DNA of 64,000 nucleotides. Source: Sipunculus nudus. Its lineage: Eukaryota > Annelida > Sipuncula > Golfingiida > Sipunculidae. The stretch spans positions 57,212,300 through 57,276,299 of the forward strand of contig CM049314.1 of the NCBI GenBank assembly GCA_026874595.1, read 5' to 3'. Position 1 is the stretch's first letter; each line of letters begins with the position of its first letter. Made by a program: the position numbers and the translations under genes. Shown one piece after another: positions 3,701 to 44,300 of this stretch. Below the pieces are notes generated by a model that had not been told where the DNA came from, did no database searches, and was given only the letters and a program-made list of their open reading frames with translations.

Positions 3701-4610
3701 ATCCATTTGTCTTCATTTGCTTGAAATGATTCAAAGTGTGTCTTAAGTGGACATTTCCCACATTACCTTATAAATTGGAAGAATTTGACATGATCCTGGG
3801 AAATTTTTGTGAAGGCTCTATCTCAGTGCCATCTAACAGAAATTATGCTGATGAACTCTGCCCATGGAAAACCTTTCCATGACGAACCCAGTCAAAGTCA
3901 TGTGCACCTAGCTATCCATTGATAAACAGGTATAATGCTAAAATATGTGAATTGGCCCAGTGAATTACAGCTCCAATCTGAACACAGTAACTGTTTTATT
4001 TCACAGACCTGCAAGAACTGTAAATATATCCATGTGGTAATATAGATTTATGAATTTTTTATTATGCTGGTCTTTTCATGTTGTCTCCTCATAAATTATT
4101 CTCTTTTTTGCCTTTCCTCTAAGTAACAAGATAGATTGCCACTCTTTGTTTGGTTGGTATGAATGTGTCGATACATATTTGTGTCCTTTCTACTCAAGCA
4201 GCATGTACAAAGTTGATTACATTGACATAAAATAAAATTCCATATCAAGATCCAAGTCTTGAAAATGGATAAAGTTGCTTTTAATCTCTACTGTCTGTGT
4301 ATATTAGTTTATAATACTTATAATATATATAATACCTGTGAGTACAAGTTTAAATGAAACAGGTATGATAAAGTAATACGGATTTATTGCAGTGTGCCTC
4401 ATAAATTCTCTAGAAAGAAACCTAGCTTATTTGGCTTTTTGCCTCCTCGGCCCAGCTGTCAAAAGAACTGTTGCAAATATGTGTAGCATGGGAAAGTATA
4501 CGACAGCTATAAGCATGTGTAACAAAATATATTTTATGGTATGGATGCATGGGCCTGGGTTTTGAAATATTTAGACAAGTTCTTTTACATTCCTAATTAC
4601 AGTATTTTAC

Positions 4611-5282
4611 TGTGTAGATAGAGTGGACCTGTATTTTGAGATCAGTATTTATGTTGCACCTTGCAATATGGATGTGTCTTGAGCTGTGTTTTGAGAGTGT
4701 TATTTATTGTGTTTTGCAATATAGATGAAACTGAACTCTTCTTTGAGATGCTTAATTGTGGTACTTTACAGTGTGGATGGAGCAGATCAGTATTTTAGAA
4801 TACCATTAATGTGTTTTTTATTATGGATTGAGTTGATCTGTTTTAAGATTATTACACTTTATTTTGCAGTATGGGTGGAGCTGACCTGTATTTTTTTTTT
4901 TTGCAGTATGGATTGATTGACCTGTGTTTTAATATTGTCATTTGTATTTTGCAGTATGGATTGAATGACCTGTGTTTTAATATTGTCATTTGTATTTTGC
5001 AGTATGGATAAAGCTGACCTGTGTTTTGAGATTGTTATTTGTATTTTGCAGTATGGATGGAGCCGACCTGTGTTTTGAGATTGTTATTTGTATTTTGCAG
5101 TATGGATGGAGCTGACCTGTGTTTTGAGATTGTTATTTGTATTTTGCAGTATGGATCGAGCTGACCTGTGTTTTGAGATTGTTAATTCTATTTTGCAGTA
5201 TGGATTGAGCTGAATGTATTTTGAAATTGTTATTTGTATTTTGCAGTTTGAATGGAGCTTACCTATGTTTTGTATTTTGCAG
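4611..5282 (+). repeat. Tandem array of duplicated 3' splice site plus exon start (14 units)
   Basis: Units begin at 4611, 4667, 4720, 4772, 4822, 4870, 4907, 4955, 5003, 5052, 5101, 5150, 5199 and 5247, and the true exon begins at 5283. The usual period is 48-49 bp, with two short units (37 bp at 4870, 36 bp at 5247) and longer ones (50-56 bp) at the 5' end. Each unit is an intron end (atttgtattttgcag) followed by about 36 nt matching the coding start of the exon (tatggatggagctgacctg then tgttttgagattgtta). Units 5003-5150 are almost identical; units 5' of 4870 are increasingly decayed, and some have lost the AG. Ten units keep a usable AG after a T-rich run. Most would read into a stop within about 20 codons because 49 is not a multiple of three. 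Confidence 0.93.
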
Positions 5283-5360
5283 TATGGATGGAGCTGACCT
5301 ATGTTTTGAGATTGTTAAGCGGGCGTCCTCAGGGTTTGTGTACAGTGAAGCAGTTGCAGG
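5283..5360 (+). CDS. CASK: CASK exon: kinase hinge and helix D
   Basis: A 78-nt exon, preceded by ttttgcag and followed by gtgagt. It begins with the third base of a split codon (T, completing the Phe of the family's FMDGAD), then encodes 25 residues, [13 protein letters not shown] then [12 protein letters not shown], and ends with GG. With the next exon's first G this makes Gly before HYLRQ. In the kinase fold this is the hinge and helix D, next to the nucleotide pocket. The exon start is duplicated many times just upstream (see array 4611-5282), so the choice of acceptor matters. I chose 5283 because only this copy continues into the conserved [12 protein letters not shown] sequence and a donor site. 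The AG at 5246 would also be in frame. Confidence 0.93.
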
Positions 5361-8300
5361 GTGAGTAGAAGTCTATAAAGTTATTCATATGTGTAAATTC
5401 TATTGACTTTGTATCAGGCTTTTGTGATTAATCAGCACTATATTATTTATACACAGAGTGAACATTCACTGATAACTTACATGACTTAACACCAACATGA
5501 CCACCATCAGTCATGGATAGCATGATACACACCTTTATCTGTGGGGGTAAAATTCCATACATATGCCAGGAGATTCACCAGTATACTGAGTCAAAGAACA
5601 ATTGTCTTACTTCATTTTAGGTCTCATTAGAATGTAAACAGACAAATGTACTTGTTGGTCCATTAAATCAGGAAAGACATGATGAACCTTGTCTAAGTAG
5701 TCAGGAATTGTCTAAAAATAAAATGAAAAGTTTGTTTCCTCCTCGAGATTTTCATTGTAGTTTTCAACATGACTGTTTCTGTTACTCAGACATCATTGAT
5801 AGGCTGTCTTATGCTGGGGGACAAATGTTTTTCACTTTCAGGTATTTTGTTTTCTATAATGTGTATAAATATATCTCGTTTTCAGCAGGTTGGATTTAAT
5901 TGTCAGCTCTAAGAAAACCATAATATTCTGAACAGTAGCAATATAACTTACACTGACAATAAATCCACTAAAAGCACTATCCAGTTTTTCTATTCTGACA
6001 GGTAAATCAGCTGTTCTTATATAATATAATTAAATCCTTAACTTTAACCACCCAGTGTTATTTAATAATTATTATAGTCTTATTCTGTATACAAGGAATA
6101 TGAGTAACCGAAGGTTGTTAATTAAATTACTGTCTGTTTACTGTATATAAGTATTATAAATATTATTTGAAGATTTATCACTAATAATCTCTGGATTTAA
6201 ACAGTAAATTATCCTCTTAGTTACCCAGAGTACTCCTCTGTGCCACTGTTTTAGGTCCTGAATTGTCAGGAGTAATACCAGCTTTGTCCCAAAGGGGGTC
6301 ATTTTCCATATTTGCCCATAAATCCTGAGGAATTTGACATTATTTTGGGAGGGATGTCTAGCTGTGCCGTCTTTCAGAAATGATGCCTTTGTAATGCAAA
6401 GATATCATATAAAGCACTTTCTGTCATATTTGCAATGAAACTGGTTTTCAGGTGTGAAACAATTAACAGGTAATAAGCTAGTTAAAATAACAACTAGACT
6501 TCTTGTAACTGTTATACAACAGTTACAGTTTTCCACCTATCCCCCAACCCCCACAGCTCATCAAAATAATTCATCCATAGTAAGGCACATCTTGGGTAAG
6601 AATCAATGAAATTGTACCAAAAAAAAGATGCAGAATAATAACAGGAAAAAACAAATATCCGCACCTAAAAACAGGAGTAGATACTAATGCCAAAAAAATA
6701 TCTTCACCTATGGATAAGTGCAGATAATTATGTGAGAGTAGTAGACATGCAAATGAAGCCAGTATATGAAGCTATTTTAGGTATGTTTGTACCAAAAAAA
6801 TATGATATTTGGTAGACATGAGCAGTGAGAGCTACTACAGACTTTGCGGTCGAGCCAGACCAATCAGGAAACAATTCATCAATGCCCAGACACGTTTGAC
6901 CTTCCTCGCAGGTGCGTTGCCACTAATACAGACCTGAGTACATTCTGGGTTTAGTTGCTGTCGCAATAAAAACAGTACATCGACATCGAGGTGGATGTGG
7001 ATGCAGCCATTGAGTCTGGTTTCCCAGCTGCTCTGATCGGCAAAGTGCACACCAGAGATCAAAGTCAGCTTGTTTGGCAAACAGCCTTTTAAATGGTTTC
7101 CTAATATCGCTTTATCTTCTTTAAATGTTTGTTGTTGTCATGTAACTTGTCCATGATTTTAAGGTCCGTTTAGAGCCAAGAGTCCTCTGGGGTATCCCCA
7201 GTTGTTCTTTATTTTTTTACACGAATGCACCAGTAACCAGGATAAACATTTAAATCAACCACTTCCTGTTGGAATAACTGCTGCATATTCAAACTTGAAT
7301 ATATGATGGCTTTTATAATGTTGTCTATTCGAACTCTCGAGCTGACTGTTTCAACTTATATGATGACAAGAACAAGCATAAGAAATTGAAAAAGCGGTGC
7401 CCTATAGTGATCACCGTGTCCGTCTGTCCATCTGTCCTTCCTTCCGTCAGTCAGTGACACTTTCTTTTGTGCATGATATCCCAAAGAGAATACAATAAAT
7501 CTTTTTCAAAATCTACAGGGATGATTAGTTCCTAGGAGGGATCTGCCCCTATCAAATTTCAGACCAACCAAAAATTCAATATGGCTGCCAGAGCACAATT
7601 GGTGAATTTTTTTTCATGCAAAAAGAGACTACAGTTTCTCCGGAAGGATGTTTGCCATATAGAGATTCCTACATCGCCACAAAAGCTGTGCTACTATCAT
7701 CTTACACCTATTCACTCTTCAGGGCCCTCTTGAGGACCATCGTCTGATAACATCTACTTAAATTCAAGAATTTCAGTTGTTCTTTAATGTCAAGGAATTA
7801 TAATTTATTAACTCTTGTTCTTCCTTAGTTTCAAGAAATTTCACTTGTGTCTACCCTCAAGTCTTGAATAAAAATACAGATTAATTAAATACACAGTCTT
7901 ACCTGATCAATGCTAACAATCATATCAAAACACCAATTAAAGTTAATTTTACATCCATAGTTAACAGGTCATGCCATATCTTAATGATAATTAACAATGA
8001 TTTTTTTCCCTCCTACAGTGTATTTCTGGTTCACAGAAAAAAGTTAGGGGACAAAGGATACATATTGTTTTTCACCCAAGATATGTTTATTTATAGTGAA
8101 ATGTACCTAATTTGATAATCAGCTCCACCTGGTGTGTATTCCCTGAAAACTGAAAAAAATGTTCATTCCATCAGACATCTGTGTTGGCTTTGTCTTTGCA
8201 AAGTATATCAAAATGTCAATAGAAGGAAAAAGGTACGTCAGACCGTACCCATACCAGCAAATAATCTGGATAGCAGATCAGTTTACTCTAGGACACTTCT

Positions 8301-26300: not shown

Positions 26301-29300
26301 TTATTATATAATATTGGTTAAAAATGGTTTTCCAGTGCCAATACATGACACAGTACGCGTCAGTCAGTCGGACGGCGATCATTGGTCACAAGTTAAACCA
26401 ATAAAAAAGGGGATATTATATGATCTTGGAAATATTTAACGGAAGTTAAATCTGTAAACACACTGCACTTGATTTTGTCACCGGGATTGATGGCCAACAT
26501 TTAGTAATTTACCGATTTTTGATGAATTTAGCGTAGGTGTCTGATTTTACTCTCGCAGCCGACATGTTACCAGGGCCCACGTAACAAGGCCACGTGAGTG
26601 AAAGTCAATCATTTTTATATTTTTCCAACAAGTCTGCGTTCGCGCCAGTTTGGATCTTGGTCACATGTTAGAACAACACTTGACGTTTTTCTCTTTCATT
26701 TAAGTACAAATATGATGGATGACAATGGACATTTCACCCCAAAAACTTGCCCCAATTATGGGTATGTAAAATGGGCTTTAGCGCGCCCGGGCGGGCGCCT
26801 TTGAATTCTACGCCCGTGACAAACCGCGCGCCCTGGCGGGCGTTATTGGAGTTTAAAGCCTTAAAAAAGCATTGTAGCCAATTGAAAAAGGCTTTCTGTA
26901 TTTGAAAACAGATTTGACTTCATGCAGCCAAGTCAAGAGGTCACTCAGTACAAACAGGTGGGGTCCAGACATCACCATGGCAACTGACCTGGGGGGGGGG
27001 GGGGTGTCTAGACAATGAGTCTAGACGTCTAGACACAGCGTCTAGACGTCTGGATACAATGTTTAGATGCAGAATTCCCAGATTATTGGAACTATATCTT
27101 TCAACTGTTTGAAAAAAACTTGGGTTGCATTTTAAGCAAATCGGGTTTATCATCAGGTCACATGTGAACTGCTGTGCCTTCATTTTTGGTTGACATCTGA
27201 CCTTTCCTTGCTGCCCAGTGTCCATTTGTGCGTCTGTTTCCACACATAAACCCACATATCTCGGAAACCGTTTGACCGATCAGGCTAAAAATTTTGCACA
27301 AATGTAGCCCTTTGATAGCTTTATAACACACACTAAAAATGGTGGCGGCACCTGCAACCATTTTTGCACAGCGTCCATTTGTTCATCTGCCTTTGGATAA
27401 TATTACTCATATCTCAGCAGAGGTTTGACTTATCCACCTGAAATTTTGCAGGTTTATACATCCTGGACAGCTTTCTCGATTTTATGACAGGTGGCGCCAC
27501 CTACATTCACATTTACTGTGCAGACATCCAAGCTCACATCTCGGGAACCGTTTGACCGATAGGGCCAAAATTTTGCATGTGCCTAGATCTCACATAGCTC
27601 TTCATCATAGGCAAAACTGGTGGTGCCACCTGCAACCACTTATGCACAGCGTCCATCTTTTCATCTGCCTTTGGATAAAATCACTCATATCTCAGCAGTG
27701 GTTTGACTTATCCACCTGAAAGTTTGCAGTTTTATACATCCTGGAAGGTTTCTTGATTTTATGACAGGTGTCGCCACCTACATTCACAGTTACTCTGCAG
27801 ACATTCAAGCTCATATCTCAGGAACCATTTGACAGATTAGGCCAAAATTTTGCACGTGTCTAGATCTCACATAGCTCTTCATCATAGGCAAAACTGGTGG
27901 TGCCACCTGCAACCATTTATGCACAGCGTCCATCTGTTCATCTGCCTTAGGTTAAAATCACTCATATCTCAGCAGTGGTTTGACTTTTCCACCTGAAATT
28001 TTGCAGGTTTATACATCCTGGACAGCTTTCTCGATTTTATGACAGGTGTCGCCACCTACATTCACATTTACTCTGCAGACATTCAAGCTCTTATCTCGGG
28101 AACCATTTGACCGATTGGGCCAAAATTTTGCTTGTTTATAGATCCCACATAGCTCTTCATCATAGGCAAAACTGGTGGTGCCACCTGCAACCATTTATGC
28201 ACAGCGTCATTCTGTTCATCTGCCTTGGGATAATATTACTAATATTTCAGCAGTGGTTTTTGACTTATTCACCTGAAATTTTGCAGGTTTATACATCCTG
28301 GACAGCTTTCTTGATTTTATAACAGGTGGCGCCATCTACATTCACTTTTACTATGCAGACATTCAAGCTCATATCTCGGGAACCGTTTGACCGATTCGGC
28401 CAAAATTTTGCTTGTGTATAGATCTCACATCGCTCTTCATCATAGGCAAAACTGGTGGCGCCACCTGCAACCACTTATGCACAGCATCAATCTGTTCATC
28501 TACCTTTGGATAATATCACTCTTGTCTCAGCAGTGGTTTGACTTATCCACCTGAAATTTTGCAGGTTTATACATCCTGGACAGCTTTCTGGATTTATGAC
28601 AGGTGGCACCACCTACATTCACATTTACACAGCAGACATCCAAGCTCATATCTCGGGAACTATTTGACTGATTGGGCAAAAAGTTTGCGTGTGTATAGAT
28701 CTCACATAGCTCTTCATCATAGGCAAAACTGGTGGCGCCATCTGCAACCACTTATGCACAGCGTCCATCTGTTCATCTGCCTTGGGATAAAATCGCTCAT
28801 ATCTCAGCAGTGGTTTGACTTATCCACCTGAAATTTTGCAGGTTTATACATCATGGACAGGTTTTTCGATTTTATAACAGGTGGCACCACCTACATTCAC
28901 ATTTACTCTGCAGATTTCCAAGCTCATATTTCGGGAACCATTTGACTGATTAGGCCAAAATTTTGCATGTGTATAGATCTCACATAGCTTTTCATCACAC
29001 GCAAAACTGGTGGTGCCACCTGCAACCATTTATGCACAACATCCATCTGTTCATCTGCCTTAGGTTAAAATCACTCATATCTCAGCAGTGGTTTAACTTA
29101 TCCACCTGAAATTTTGCAGGTATTTTACATGCTTGACAGCTTTCTTGATTTTATGACAGGTGTCGCCACCTACATTCACTTTTACTCTGCAGACATCCAG
29201 CTCATATCTCGGGAACCATTTGACTGATTAGGCCAAAATTTTGCATGTGCATAGATCTCACATAGCTCTTGGCGCCACCTGCAACCACTTATGCACAGCA

Positions 29301-32300
29301 TCCATCTGTTGATCTGCCTTTGGATAAAATCACTCATATCTCGGCAGTGGTTTGACTTATCCACCTGAAATTTTGCAGGTTTATACATCCTGGACAATTT
29401 TCTCGATTTTATGACAGGTGGCACCACCTACATTCACGTTTAAGCTGCAGACATCCATGCTAATATGCAACACACCACACTGTATTCCCCTTGCCACTGA
29501 ATCCATGCTTCACTTCACCCGTCCCATTCAGATTTCTGCGGATACACATAATGGCTTGTCGACTACCCATATTCTGGTTTTAAAATGTCCTAGTCCGAAA
29601 TTGCAGGTCAGAAACGTCCATTTTGCTGAAATCATAATGACTAAGGTAGATATGCAGGACTTAGGAGGATCAATATTAAATTTTAAAAATAAACCTCCAT
29701 TCATACTCCTAAACTTTGCACAGGTTCGCATTAGGCCTGTAGGCCTTGTTTTAAATGGGCCCTATCATTCTCCCTGAACCATTTAACGTATATGCACCAG
29801 GCTCGATGGACATCACTACGTAGCTGAAGATAAATCTCAACTGTCGCAAACCATCGGCAGCTTCTGAAATTAATGACCAATGGTCTGGTATGTATGCATT
29901 CAAAACTGCGTGGTTTCAATTTCGCGTTCAGAGAGCGATCGCGAATTTCGCGAATTTGAAACCACCGCAAATAAGAAGACAACCACAGTATCTCTGTTGA
30001 AACTTTGAACATGCCTTCTCTATCCCTGTCCTCACTCTGCTCATTTCTGGCTCACTCCAAGCATCTGCTAGTGCCCCCCCCCCCCCATCTCACTTTGTCC
30101 TTGTTCTAGCTCACTCCATCCTTGTCCTAGCTCATCCCACTCTTATCTGAGCTCACTCCACCCTTGTCCTTGCTCACTCCATCCTTGTCCTTACTCATTC
30201 TACCCTTGTTTTAGCTCATTCCATCATTTTCCTTGCTCACACCATCCTTGTGCAAACTCATTCTGCCCTTGTTTTAGCTCATTCCACCATTTTCCTTGCT
30301 CACACCATCCTTGTCCTACCTCACTTTCTCCCTTGTCCTAGTTCACTTCACCCTTATCCTACCTCACTTTTCCTTTGTCCTAGTTCACTTCACCCTTGTC
30401 CTAGCGCACTCCACCCTTGTCCTACATCACTCCATCCTTGTCCTATCTGTTTTGTTGCCATCTGCTTCTCCTGGTGTATGATCTATGATAATACTTTGTT
30501 TGCACAAAAAAGCTTTATCAGAGAATAGAATAGAGGGATAAAGAAAACAAAAGGAAATAATGGGAAATGATGGGAAAATAAGCAAAAATGCAAATAACTG
30601 TCATGAATAGTCTGATGATTCTATTATCTGCTCAGGGATTGGTTTCATCTAAACCTCAGCCTGGTTAGTTAAAAGTAGATAATGGAAAATGAAAATTATA
30701 CATATATACCAGTCATGAATAAATGACTGAGCTTCTTTGTAAATTACAAAGAATATTTAGGAATGTAACAATTAAAGATGCAAACAGTCATAATGCATAT
30801 TTATAGGAGCCTGTTGTCTCCTCAGAAATTGGTTTCATCTGAACCTGTGCATGGCCAGTCACCAGTTGAAAGTGAAATATGGAAAATAAAAGTGAAACAT
30901 AAATACCAATCATGGCTAAATGAATGAGGTTCCAGAAATAGTTTCGCAGATGGACTCAAATCTGATTTCATTAGTCTAGCCATGAACAAAATAGTTGAAA
31001 GTTGTTTTTCTTCCAGGGGCATCGGGGAAATTTAAATTGACAGTGGATGGAGATGCGATAATGTTCATTTCTCACCCAGTTTTACATTGGGACATTTGGC
31101 GGAGGTGATTGAGGACTTTGGGCTTTCTTTTCAGGCACTACCTACGTCAGATCTTGGAAGCCTTGCGGTACTGTCATGAAAACGATATAATCCACCGAGA
31201 TATGAAACCCCACTGCGTCTTACTTGCCAACAAAGAAAACTCAGCCCCGATTAAATTAGGCGGCTTTGGAGTAGCCATACAACTTCCAGAGGGAGGGAAA
31301 ATATCGGGAGGTGAGTAACCCATTCAGGATGTGTAAGATTTTTTCCGTAACATGTGAAGTGCTGTGCTTACTTGGTATAATTTGCACGTAGGTGATTCAT
31401 AATATGTCATATTGTGATTTAAAACATGAGCTTGAAAACAACTTGTTCCATTCAGTAAAGTAATGCAAATGTTTCTTGCAATCTTAATTACTAAGTTGGC
31501 TGACTACTAATTGAATCATGTGCAGATTAGATATTGTTTCTTGTGTTGTCTGAATTATTTCTGTAAAAGATAAAAAGACACTGGCTATAACAGCTCCGAG
31601 AAAATTAATGAATAATTTTAGTTGCTTTCATTTCTTTTGTTATGACATCAAAAAGAACACAAACTTGTCAAAGGCTGGCCTGCAACCAATTTAAAATCAG
31701 TAATATTTTGCAGAGAACAGATTTCTAAAATCCAAGGGGAAAAAATGAAATAACTTTTTACCTTAAGCAAAATTAAAGTGGTTGATATGGAAATTTTTTG
31801 ACATGATTTTAATTTAATCAAATTTTTGGGTAAGATGAATATCCTAGTTCACTCCAGATGATGTGTAATGGTTTGTTTACTGATAAATTTTTCAGCGTTA
31901 GAGGAACATGTACACTATGGCACACAGTGTTGGCTTAGTTTGGAGGACAATAAGATGGGTAAGACCATGCAAGACCATTATAGCCACCAGGGAGCTTGCT
32001 TGGCCTCGGCCCTAATGATTAACCTCCTATGGTCTTGCCAGCAATCATTCGCTGCAGACCCTGCACATTTACTGCTGCACCGCTGTTATTCCATAGCTGG
32101 TAAAAGAAATACTGACACTTCTACTATGAATAATGGGAACCTCTGGTTTCTTCACACAAAATGACAGTTTTTACCCAATCAACCCTATTTTCTCCTAAGT
32201 ATTATATAAATGGGCTGTTCTTTTTTTCACCGAGAACACCTCGGCTATGTTATTGATATTATACTTGTGGGAAGAAATTCCTGAAAAAAAACACGTGATG

Positions 32301-38300: not shown

Positions 38301-41300
38301 TTAACACTACATTGGTTTATAGGCAGTGCCATGACCATAGAACATTACACACCAATTTATAGATTTTTTCCCAAATGGAAATCTTGAATTTCCAAACTAG
38401 TTTATCTCTATATGTTCTATTTTTCCAAGCCCTTAACCAGTTTTATAACATTCATTTCCATGGAAACTTTCCTTTATCTGAAATTATAAATGGTATATTG
38501 AACAGGATTAAAGGAAATGTTGAAAACCAGATTGCTCATGCTGCATTATTTATGGAGGTGAATACATGACTCAGACTTTGTAACCACTCCGATTTATTAG
38601 GTTGATATGGTCAACTTAGAATGGTGATTCCAGCGATATGCTGAAAACTGTGATGCAGTGGGCATTCACACAGTTGCTACAGTACCAGTGTATACAACTT
38701 GAATCTAAATATTGCGCTTAGAGTGAGGAATGCACACAACAGAGATGTGAATGAACCAACCATTGCATAAATCCCATCCCTGTGGTGGCTGTCAACTTTT
38801 CCTGTGGCCTGCATGACAAATCTGTCAGTCGCAGAACCTATCGGAGACATGCTTGCCACCAGGTAGAATAAGAAGACTATAAATGTGTTTCCTCTCTGAC
38901 TTTTACACTGAAGTTTTTGATATGACTCAGGCTGCCATTCTGAGATGGTCAATAAAAGTCTTAATAATCTTAGGGACAAAACTGCTGTCACATTGTTCAG
39001 TTTTAAAGACTTTTTATGTGATACCATGGTTAATATGTCAGTCATGTTTTAAAAACCCTCTTGTTGTAGTCTTTTTTCAGGTATCCAAAGATCCATTTGT
39101 TTAATAAACTCCCAATGAAGGGTGTGGTCACTTAGGCATGTTATTCTGGCCTCATCTCTGCAGTTATGGATCCAACCACCTCCTAAAGCTTTGTATATAG
39201 ATTTGAAATATGTACAATAAAACCTCCTGTTAAAGAAATTAAAATCAAATACCCCACTTTTGCCAAAGTTTAATGCTAAGAATTCCAAGATAAATTATTA
39301 CCATATAATAACCTGTTTGTATCAGTCCTTCAGTAAGTTAAAGCTTTACCACAAGTACCTTCGAGTTCGACACAATGAGGTTGGAGGTTATTTTAATTTA
39401 ATTTTGTTTCCTGAAGAACACATTTGTGTAATGAAGAGGTAATTAAAACAATTTATGTTATACTTAACATGAGGTACCAGTGAAATGAAATAATTTAAGT
39501 TTTGCCATGGTAATTTTAGAATATTATATAAAACTCAAAATGATAAGCACTGTTAAATGTAATCGATTAACTACAGCAGATATATGAACTTTGACTGTAA
39601 AGGTTTGATTTTTTCAGTTTATAACAACCTGGTACTTGTACAATTATATTGTTGTAAATGATTGGGATGTTGTGCTACATTGATGTCTCTTGTTTTTTTA
39701 TATATATATTTAGTTGTTTGTAACAACTATGCTTCTCAGGCAGTGGTTATACACTGCAGTCTTGCCAGATCTCCTTTGTTTTAACCGCTGCTTTGTATAG
39801 CAAGGTCTCTGGGTTACACCACCAGGGCTGGAACAGGGCAGAGAATTTTAATCAGACCATTGAGAGCATAGTACCTCATTGTGCATCCAGCTCCAAATTT
39901 TAAACATGCGACACCCACTCTTGTTGATATGATTACACCAGTTCTGGCACAGGGCCAAGAGTCAGACCAATGAGAGCAGATGTCACATGTTTAAAATTTG
40001 GAGCTGGATGCACAATGAGATACCTTGCTCTAATTGGTCTGATTATAATTATTTGCCCAGTGCCAGGTGGAACCCATAGACTCTTGATATACAAAGCAGC
40101 GGTTTGAACAATGCAGATCTGGGATGACTACAGTATTTAACAGCTGGTTGGGGGGTAAGTGTAACATCCAGTACTAATTCTTTACCATGTTGGTGATCAC
40201 TCTGGTTCTTTTTATCTTTGGGTGGTGGATTATTTTCATTTTTCATATGTTATATTCTGTGTTTATCAATCTTATTTTTTTCTCTCTTTTGAATGTATTT
40301 CATTTGATTGAAAAAAAAATTGCAGTGATGCTTTTTATTTTAATTTGGAATACCAGATATAGTGCAAGATTTCCCCTGCTGTATATTTAGATCCAAACTG
40401 GATATATTTAGCATTAATGAAGCTTAATTCAGTGACTGTTTTTTATTTAAAGTTTCTGCAGAAATTAGTTCAGCTGACCTTTTATATTATTTACATATGT
40501 TCAAATAAATGTGATTTTTCATTTGCGATGAAAATGTCCGATGCATCAAATATTGTTTTGCAGATAAATTCTTTTTAAATTATAGAAACGAAATTGCTTA
40601 CTCTTTTTCTAGGTACCAAAAGATGTAAAATGTCTTTTATGAACACCAAAACCTTTGTTTGACTTATTCCTTCAGTCCATAGCTGCTGCCATCTGTTGTG
40701 CAAAAGGGAACTAAAAAAGTGATTGTATGTGAAAATATTTATTTGTGAAAAATGTATTGTTCCTTAAATAGAAATACCAAAAAAAAATCACGAAAACCTG
40801 AATGAAATCATATGCTTGCTTTTATTATGAAATTATTAATGAGATATATTTACAAGCATAATATAAAGTGAATGTTAATATTATAATGTTTATTTTATGT
40901 ATTTGAGCACATAAGTGCCACTGCAAGTACTTTTTTCTTGTTTTTAGCAAAATTTGTTGTTTGACAAGTTCAGATGTGTATTTCAGTTATAAAATTAATG
41001 ATTTATTAATTTGCTTTCACTAGGGCAGAGTTGGCATCCCATGCTTGAGATATAGCAGAGTGATCCAATTTTCTGAATAAAAATTTATATTTTATTATAG
41101 TACATGATGTTTTATCATTGTGGTATTTTCAGGCCGCATAGGGACGCCACACTTTATGGCACCCGAAGTGGTGAAGCGAGAACGTTACGGTAAACCGGTT
41201 GACATATGGGGTACCGGTGTCATGTTGTATATACTGCTGAGTGGCACGCTGCCTTTCTTTGGGACCAAAGACAGATTATTTGAGATGATTGTCAGAGGGG

Positions 41301-44300
41301 CGTTCACAGTGAGTACCACAGTGGAGGGTTGTGGGATATGTCGCTCAATTTAAATCACGATATGTTGCTCGTTGCAGATGATATTCCCTATATATTGCAA
41401 TATTTAAATATTGACTAAAGAAAGTGTGCTTGTCCAGTATATGTGTCAAGTTTCCTTTCAAATATTCCTGTTGAGAAATAATTAAACAAATTGAACTTTC
41501 TGATGACATGAAAAGTTAAAACCTTTATTAATCGACAGGTTTCCATTCAGCAGTTGCTTTTTTCTATAAACTAAGCTTTAAATAGCGTGGTGCATTTTGC
41601 AGTATAGTATGGTCTGTATATTACAAAATATATTGAAAATTGTGATTGACAATTAGAAAAGAAAGCTTAACATGAACATTATGTATTGCCAGAAAAAAAA
41701 ATTCTGTTGATAAACTTCAGGCCTATGTTGTCATGATAGTGCAATATATAATTTTGAAATAATTTGTTACAAAGAAAACTTTTTTTTATAGCTTGTTAGT
41801 TGTAAGAGTTAAAAGGGATTCTTTCTCATCCAAAGTGACAGATCTTTATGAATTCAGACATTTTAATAACGATGAATATATTTGTAGTTCTCAATTAATT
41901 GTTGATGAAAGTGCTAAGTATATAGAGAATTGGCTTTGATAATTAATGATTATGATTATGATGATGAGGCATTGATGTAGCAGCTATGTACAACTAGCTA
42001 TTATGACTCGTTAATAAGGTATATTACCATCCTATGTTAATAATTAAATCTACATAACGATCCACAAATCAGAGTAATGGCTATATTTGTCATACTTAGA
42101 ACTTTGATGTCAGCTGAGACATTGAGAGACCTTGATTGTTATGGTTATTTACGATGTATGATGTTTATACAGATGAAGGGGAGGCAGTGGGATTACATCA
42201 GTGACGAGGGTAAAGACTTGGTACATCGTATGTTAGAGCTTGATCCCAACCGACGAATGACGGTAGAGGAAGCACTAGCACATCCGTGGGTCAGGGTAAG
42301 TCATATTCACCTATGTATGTCAGTCCTTATTTTTCTATATATCTGTATGTTTGCCATTGCTTGAGATAAATATTAAAATATAAATTCATTCAATTTATAC
42401 ATGGTTTTCTGTTAACATATCTTTTTGACTGAAGGAAAGGGATGGTTTGCAGTGTATTTTGCTTGATATTCAAGATCACTATGTGTCAGAAACGGCTGTT
42501 GGTGGTGTTACCTGGTGGAAGTTTTTTGTACTATAGTATAGCACAATCAGAGAAGAAATTATTTATCAATATGAAGGTAATATGTGGGTTTTGTTTATAA
42601 ATTAGAAGTTTTCTTATTGGTTTATATGGTTATATGTAAACTAAATGTGGTAGATCAAGGGAAAGTGGTACTTTTGTTTTTTGTCGCTTACCAAGCAAAA
42701 GCCCAATCATTCATGCAGTTAAATTTAATTAGTCAGGAACTTTATCCGTCTTATTTTTTACAGCTTTCCAGATTTTCTCCGTGTTTCACATCCTATTCAT
42801 ACAACTCTGTAAATACTTTAAGTTTTACATTCCAGTAATCAGTATTTCTCTTACAGTCACCTTCATGTATCTGTACTTCTTCTGTCTCTTTTGATTAAAT
42901 TTAGTGTTTTTTTCCCAGTTGCCCATTATTATTCAGTTCCTTCTTCTTGATATCTCCTCATAAATAATTACTCTCTTTTCTTAGATACAATGCTGTATTC
43001 ATTCCTATTTAACAGAACTGGTAAATTATGTTTACATCATTTTCCACTGTCTTTAATTCTGGGATTGGCAAGGAGTTATCATTTAACAGACCTGCCATCT
43101 GGTGTACAAACTTGTAACCAGGATTATATTAGTTGGCTTAAGACTCAACAGGGGGCACATTAGTCTTGTGTTTGCTATTGCTTAAAATAAGTGATTTATA
43201 TTTACATTCATGTTTCACTTCATGTTTGTAGGAGAAAGCCAAGACACCAAGGTTACATTTACATGAAACAGTAGAAGCTATGAAGAAATTTAATGCCAGA
43301 AGAAAACTTAAGGTAAATAAATTCTTTCACACTGAGGACCAGTCATTTACTGGTTTTGTACCAACTTTTTTCAATATTTTTCATACTTCATCATGCAAGA
43401 GAGATATAAATTTGTGAAATACTATTAAAGCCAAAGGGTCCATGGGTCCAGGGTCAGGATATGACCTTATGTTTAACCCATTTATATTGAACAGTTGAAG
43501 TTCTGCCGTCTTAGGGTCCACCAGGGACTCGTAGGTGGGAAGATGAAACCTTGATAGAACATAGGGATGCACTCTAATATAGTTAAAAAATTCTTGTCAG
43601 TGAAGGCTTTCCATGCCTATGGATGCGAGAGCTGTTTGTAAGTCGATGTTAACATCACAAAGATGTCACAAAGGTTGGTTTGTGTATATGACATCACATT
43701 AACTGACATCATCAGCTGGAATTGCTGCATCTCTGTTCCCCAGTGATGAATTTATTGCATTCATTGCAAAGTGTTCTGCCATATTTTGCATTTTTAGCTC
43801 AGCTGACTATAAGTCATCTGAGCTATAGTCATGGTCCATTGTCCGTCGTCCGTCCGTCCGTCGTGCCGTCCGTCTGTCCGTCTGTCTGTCCGTCTGGATG
43901 TCCGTCCGTAAGACTGGCACGTTTCGACACCGTTGGACCTACGAATCTGAATTTCGGCATACAGTTAGATGTCCCCATTATCTCCTACCATGCCAAAAAT
44001 TGGGTCAATAGGACTTCGTTCCTTTGAGATATTAAGGAAAAACCTCAATTTTTTATTAGAAATCTATTTTCACACTTCAGGACTGCCTAATATCAAAACC
44101 ACTCATCTGGTTTTCTTCATATTTACCATAAATATTCCTCTATATAGTTCCTATGTACATGCCAGATATTAAGTCAGTATTTTATAATTTAAAAAAGTTA
44201 TGGGCCCAAACATAATGGACTTTGTAAAAAAATCAGGAAGATATAATGTCACTTAAGACCAAAAGTGTTAAAGGTAGGGACTTTTTTCCAGTAATACAAC

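Follow-up and report, generated by a model that had tools for sequence, protein, structure and literature searches.

Tandem acceptor-like copies at the edge of a CASK exon in Sipunculus nudus: probably a tolerated mirage

Directly upstream of a CASK exon in Sipunculus nudus, the edge of that exon is repeated head to tail, together with the end of the preceding intron, in 14 units, most of which retain an AG that scores like an acceptor of the genome's own, and arrays of the same kind recur at the exon edges of other genes. We regard the array as probably a tolerated mirage, that is, a minisatellite which came to span the exon edge by chance and which splicing mostly ignores. Tolerated growth of a repeat is the most likely reading, rather than a special switch of CASK, because arrays of the same kind stand at other genes and because mirages are known from amphioxus. 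Positions are given for the window, namely the whole stretch of 64,000 nucleotides that was analysed, and the features on which the argument depends, within the window and elsewhere in the genome, are collected in Table 1.

The initial annotation had described 14 tandem units copied from the edge of a CASK exon, ten of which keep an AG, with nearly identical units at 5003–5150 and decayed units on the 5' side, and this description is borne out by locating the units and aligning them with the exon, which phmmer identifies as CASK, and by the AGs at the unit ends. The core unit of 49 nt joins exon nucleotides 1–35 to a 14-nt intron end; unit lengths run from 36 to 63 nt and are 48–49 nt in nine of the 14, the two shortest measuring 37 nt (4870) and 36 nt (5247). 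The TRF score of the array region is 559, and among 500 dinucleotide shuffles of the same region 48 gave any row with a period of at least 10, with a top score of 88. As in mirages, the units span the splice site, combining exon and intron sequence, and the array abuts a genuine exon, the last unit ending at 5282 and the CASK exon beginning at 5283. As far as the search reaches, the sequence of the array is found at one place only in the 1.43-Gb genome. The units at 5003, 5052, 5101 and 5150 lie 0–3 bases from the consensus and are probably the youngest part of the array, whereas the five 5'-most units show 70–85% identity to the exon over ungapped columns, and the last unit (5247) is also diverged, with 19 of 22 aligned bases identical; homogenised inner units and diverged boundary units are a further feature of mirages. 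Point changes aside, the last unit corresponds either to the 49-nt unit minus 13 nt between TTTG repeats or to a 36-nt duplication between TTTG repeats, and the TTTG repeats at the joins are compatible with single-amplification and second-duplication histories alike. The CTATG variant common to the exon and the last unit had been taken as a sign that the array grew more than once, which it does not require: it fits an early copy that turned CTGTG and was then amplified as well as a later second duplication, and one A/G difference in the later-amplified copy explains it equally.

Table 1. Features of the CASK array and its exons in the window, and exon-edge arrays at other genes
Feature	Position	Strand or orientation	Basis
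Tandem array, 14 units (intron end + first 35 nt of CASK exon)	about 4604-5282	+	repeat calling, alignment, shuffle control
Short 37-nt unit with T12 run, ending in the strongest decoy, AG 4905-4906 (start 4907)	4870..4906	+	matrix score
Four near-identical units (5003, 5052, 5101, 5150)	5003..5198	+	unit alignment
48-nt unit whose end is decoy acceptor 5247	5199..5246	+	matrix score, frame reading
Last unit, 36 nt, with true acceptor and CTTAC; CTATG common to exon	5247..5282	+	alignment, motif scan
CASK exon, 78 nt, from which the edge was copied; GTGAGT donor at 5361	5283..5360	+	repeat reading, phmmer
Next CASK exon, used for reading frames	31135..31310	+	
Further CASK exon; ends judged by eye	41133..41308	+	
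Further CASK exon; ends judged by eye	42173..42295	+	
L009, acceptor-side array, units about 82 nt			
L020 (myosin), acceptor-side array, 31-nt units			
L129, acceptor-side array, units about 30 nt			
L148 (kinesin), acceptor-side array, 11.5 copies of 61 nt	100-870; C14 near 65443000	reverse complement	
L026 (myosin), donor-side array, 27.8 copies of 36 nt	1737-2736; C7 near 52358000	reverse complement	
L124, donor-side array, 4.7 copies of 84 nt			

The exon from which the copies derive is matched by phmmer with an E value of 5e-10, all seven PDB hits with E no higher than 1 being CASK, and its translation is identical to the top PDB match in 23 of 25 residues. The next CASK intron holds two more tandem arrays, at 27335-29466 (278-nt units) and at 30098-30445 (63-nt units), the second of which stops about 690 nt upstream of the exon at 31135. 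Comparison by blastn of seven CASK exons and their flanks gave only chance-level matches to the first of these arrays (E 0.26 or more) and no match to the second.

The strength of the copies as acceptors was assessed with a 3' splice-site matrix of 93 acceptors from myosin, chaperonin and kinesin exons of the same genome, from which the doubtful boundary calls of L002, L123, L124 and L130 were excluded; the matrix leans towards good sites, because its training acceptors were called mechanically by a pyrimidine-favouring rule. On this genome-specific scale the true acceptor at 5283 scores 9.53 (57th percentile) and is not the strongest site. The ten decoys that keep the AG at the unit end have their exon-like starts, with scores in brackets, at 4772 (5.71), 4870 (8.01), 4907 (14.43), 4955 (8.17), 5003 (8.17), 5052 (9.68), 5101 (9.68), 5150 (9.68), 5199 (9.70) and 5247 (10.15); an extra AG at the outer edge of the array (4603), scoring 6.16, was left out of the decoy count. 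Six of the ten equal or exceed the true site, decoy 4907 reaching the 97th percentile, and nine stand at or above the 32nd percentile of the genome's own acceptors, in agreement with the earlier view that the copies are plausible as acceptors. With frames read into the exon at 31135, an early stop follows nine decoys, after 3 codons (4907, 4955, 5199), 21–25 codons (5003, 5052, 5101, 5150) or 47–48 codons (4772, 4870), and the stops fall at least 149 nt upstream of the exon's donor. The prediction that most decoys would give a stop in about 20 codons therefore stands as regards the stop and fails as regards its distance, which ranges from 3 to 48 codons with only four decoys at 21–25, and the decoy nearest to the exon, 5247, is in frame and open, adding 36 nt or 12 residues, a point that the initial annotation had overlooked.

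Ten AGs of this kind ahead of the true site had seemed to conflict with the rule that the spliceosome usually takes the first AG after the branch point. This paradox weakens because the true site has a branch-like motif of its own downstream of all decoy AGs, namely a CTTAC, its putative branch point, with the A placed 22 nt before the exon, the nearest AG upstream of the true site being 25 nt away. An AG less than about 12-15 nt from the branch point is reported to be open to bypass in scanning (PMC1431707), and since scanning permits bypass, splicing need not be captured by AGs that lie 5' of the true branch point or in the immediate vicinity of a decoy's. Decoy 4907 scores far above the true site and has a CTGAC with its A 23 nt upstream. 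Within 50 nt before decoys 5247 and 5101 there is no YTNAY. Branch-point signal is weak in this genome as a whole, YTNAY preceding 59 of 92 acceptors versus 170 of 350 controls, and CTNAC shows no enrichment upstream of the genome's acceptors (7.6% vs 7.7%). A strong CTGAC branch point in every unit was also considered and rejected, as CTNAC lacks enrichment and the motif has been lost in some units. The sequence model alone fails to explain an exclusive use of 5283, and real use of decoys is therefore possible. Such use could amount to constitutive noise, in which the decoys, above all 4907 and 5247, would be taken at a few percent without regulation and would yield degraded RNA and a little of an isoform with 12 more residues. 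We think this unlikely: the scores of 4907 and 5247 both exceed that of the true site and the frame of 5247 is open, but 5247 lacks a YTNAY in its preceding 50 nt, and the 12 added residues would lie within the kinase domain, immediately ahead of MDGADLC, and might not be tolerated there.

The initial annotation had placed the array in a conserved gene taken to be dosage-sensitive; that it is special to such a gene is not supported, similar arrays standing at myosin, chaperonin and kinesin genes, on the acceptor and the donor side. Among 73 exon loci chosen by protein family, irrespective of repeats (30 of myosin, 19 of host chaperonin and 24 of kinesin, with 11 bacterial loci among the 30 of PF00118, L113-L122 and L127, dropped before counting), tandem-repeat calls and reading of the flanks revealed six more exon-edge arrays, four at acceptors and two at donors. 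In L148 a kinesin exon (AFDHIFETIMSMDNVKYLV...) is preceded by copies of its acceptor; in L026 the unit repeats the exon's own donor, CAG/GTCAGT, and 27 decoy donors pass the 5th percentile of the genome's donors. If every AG that exceeds the 5th percentile and lies inside or next to an acceptor array is taken as a decoy, the five such arrays have 56 decoys, 53 of which lead to a stop (CASK 9 of 10, L020 7 of 8, L009 7 of 7, L129 5 of 6, L148 25 of 25). In L009, 2 of 7 decoys equal or exceed the true site in score, as do 14 of 25 in L148, and the true site beats all decoys in L020 and L129. A 17-nt array with CTACAG that reaches up to a kinesin exon in L159 was left uncounted, a better acceptor (8.02 vs 7.62) lying 30 nt further in. 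In L151 a two-copy repeat without exon sequence stands right after the donor. A further array in L123 (1-836, reverse-complement orientation) consists of 46 copies of an 18-nt unit, TTACCAGGTGTCTGTGTA, that looks like a splice donor repeated over and over, and a reading of 180 nt at the end of the array revealed no exon edge.

Three observations of another kind concern the genes and contigs of the assembly. Several unplaced contigs among C60-C99 (e.g. C60:17380-18780, and C89) carry bacterial genes, cytochrome oxidase and GroEL-like, with equal or near-equal scores; the relatives of the oxidase in a collection of bacterial species, the best among the matches listed, have 54-60% identity and include myxobacterial and Bdellovibrio-like MAGs among others, and the contigs probably represent an undescribed bacterial associate or contaminant. 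The dermatopontin-like family PF14704 shows a large expansion, with 67 exon matches, of which 23 fall on C16. The top PDB matches to a myosin exon of L001 are the squid and scallop chains 3i5f, 2ec6, 2os8 and 1dfk (193 to 190.8 bits), closely followed by Myosin-6 chains at 190.1, which weakly suggests a lophotrochozoan- or mollusc-like genome and not a cephalochordate one; the GFP and molluscan hemocyanin families had no match, control genomes likewise giving none.

Tandem arrays are common in the introns of this genome and, if anything, rarer at exon edges. A first test of 137 boundaries of primary matches found L026 only, and a wider one, covering 201 boundaries of 106 exons, found at least three copies at three of them (L009, L026, L129); L143, whose locus shows one copy only, proved to hold the exon end of the array in L148. 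L020 and L124 were found by eye and lie outside the 201-boundary count, the exon of L020 being absent from the match list and the donor of L124 uncalled. The background is set by random flank words, 149 of 2,920 of which have at least two further copies. Enrichment at exon edges was accordingly rejected, the comparison of 4 of 201 edges with these words giving a Fisher P of 0.043 towards depletion, and of 0.017, again towards depletion, when only edges with at least three copies (3 of 201) are counted, with both values serving only as a guide, since the exon-edge arrays are themselves among the flank words, which moreover cluster by locus.

A wider proposition is that in this lineage a percent-level share of the splice sites gives rise to exon-edge arrays, and that these are filtered by selection via the decoy closest to the exon, which comes into an open frame through indels in the last unit (CASK 5247, +36 nt; L020, +33 nt). 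The nearest decoy would then be a harmless alternative acceptor, and thereby a path to new isoforms and new introns, and CASK would have a kinase-domain isoform with 12 extra residues. The proposition appears very doubtful to us, as only CASK and L020 have an open nearest decoy, and at the other three of the five arrays on the acceptor side (L009, L129, L148) it leads to a stop; an in-frame nearest decoy is thus not established as a general rule.

A function as a regulated set of acceptors, which the initial annotation had put forward, finds no support in these comparisons. Under such a scheme of poison acceptors, a set share of CASK transcripts would be sent to decoys and so to an early stop and decay, by which the dose of CASK would be tuned. 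The early stops, placed well before the exon's donor, and the acceptor-like scores of the decoys would suit this scheme, but the acceptor columns carry no significant extra conservation, the mismatch among units being 8.2% in acceptor-side (intron) columns vs 13.1% on the exon side (P = 0.10) and P being 0.51 for the AG columns, both comparisons having low power within one genome. Similar arrays moreover occur at unrelated genes, also on the donor side, and amphioxus mirages are reported to splice regularly (PMC3087553, PMC3902484), so that we consider regulation by poison acceptors highly improbable. As for an assembly artefact, we give it next to no credence: repeats are a usual place for errors and the locus turned up only once in the assembly, but the units carry private substitutions and indels, the array is short and lies inside a contig of 79.8 Mb (C9), and like arrays recur elsewhere in the genome.

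If the array is a tolerated mirage, as we favour, a short tandem duplication would by chance have spanned the 3' splice site of the CASK exon and given birth to a minisatellite, which may then have expanded from its middle through slippage or unequal exchange as decay set in among the outer units. Splicing would most likely be to 5283 almost always, this site being favoured because it adjoins the exon and its donor, where a choice by exon definition would operate, and because its own branch-like motif lies 3' of every decoy AG. Use of the decoys should be leaky and low, and nearly all of its products would presumably be cleared by nonsense-mediated decay, with the exception of those from the in-frame decoy 5247.

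The CASK array and the six others would extend mirages beyond amphioxus, and exon-edge arrays would then be no oddity of lancelets; among the literature matches listed, with subscription papers largely outside their scope, there was no report of exon-edge arrays outside chordates, which is a weak negative. A genome with many such arrays offers a natural experiment in which the spliceosome chooses among up to 28 near-identical acceptors or donors, and also one on whether exon-edge arrays give rise to new introns or isoforms. How branch points are chosen and exons defined becomes directly testable, because each array has matched decoys whose sequences differ by a few bases.

Several known systems resemble the CASK array in part. 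On the donor side, Turri and colleagues reportedly described in 1995 a minisatellite with multiple splice donor sites in human IFI6 (6-16). That case and CASK share a minisatellite repeating a gene's splice site, and they differ in that the repeats of IFI6 reportedly provide multiple donors of a transcript, whereas those of CASK lie on the acceptor side and are candidate sites. In human duplicated genes, minisatellites at exon-intron boundaries are reported to be able to activate cryptic splice sites and form novel introns; these internal tandem repeats resemble the CASK array in position, but they vary between recent paralogues, while CASK is one locus in one assembly (PMC2812944). Intronic minisatellites of C. 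elegans are likewise tied to splicing, being dispersed and enriched near multiple alternative exons, though the available text of that report does not describe them as exon-edge copies (PMC4039745). In NAGNAG tandem acceptors, as in CASK, several AGs compete for one exon, but the acceptors there are 3 bases apart, whereas the CASK units measure 36–63 nt and each may bring its own branch-like motif (PMC3250501).

The closest likeness is to the mirages reported from amphioxus in the globin genes BflGb6 and BflGb9 and in Adh3, TnC and PGBD5, which have been proposed as a source of new introns (PMC3087553; PMC3902484). These, too, are described as minisatellite-like tandem copies across an intron-exon boundary, beside the real exon, which can hit both exon boundaries and in which many, not all, units keep the AG or GT (PMC3087553). 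Units within a cluster are alike there, homogenised inner units being reported for the globin mirage, and boundary units stand outside the homogenisation (PMC3087553). They differ in dimensions, the units being 150-160 bp in 3-6 copies in BflGb6 and 10-72 bp in Adh3, in contrast to mostly 48-49 nt in 14 units at CASK (PMC3087553). For the globin and Adh3 mirages length instability is reported and RT-PCR suggested regular splicing (PMC3087553; PMC3902484), whereas the CASK array is known from the sequence of one assembly.
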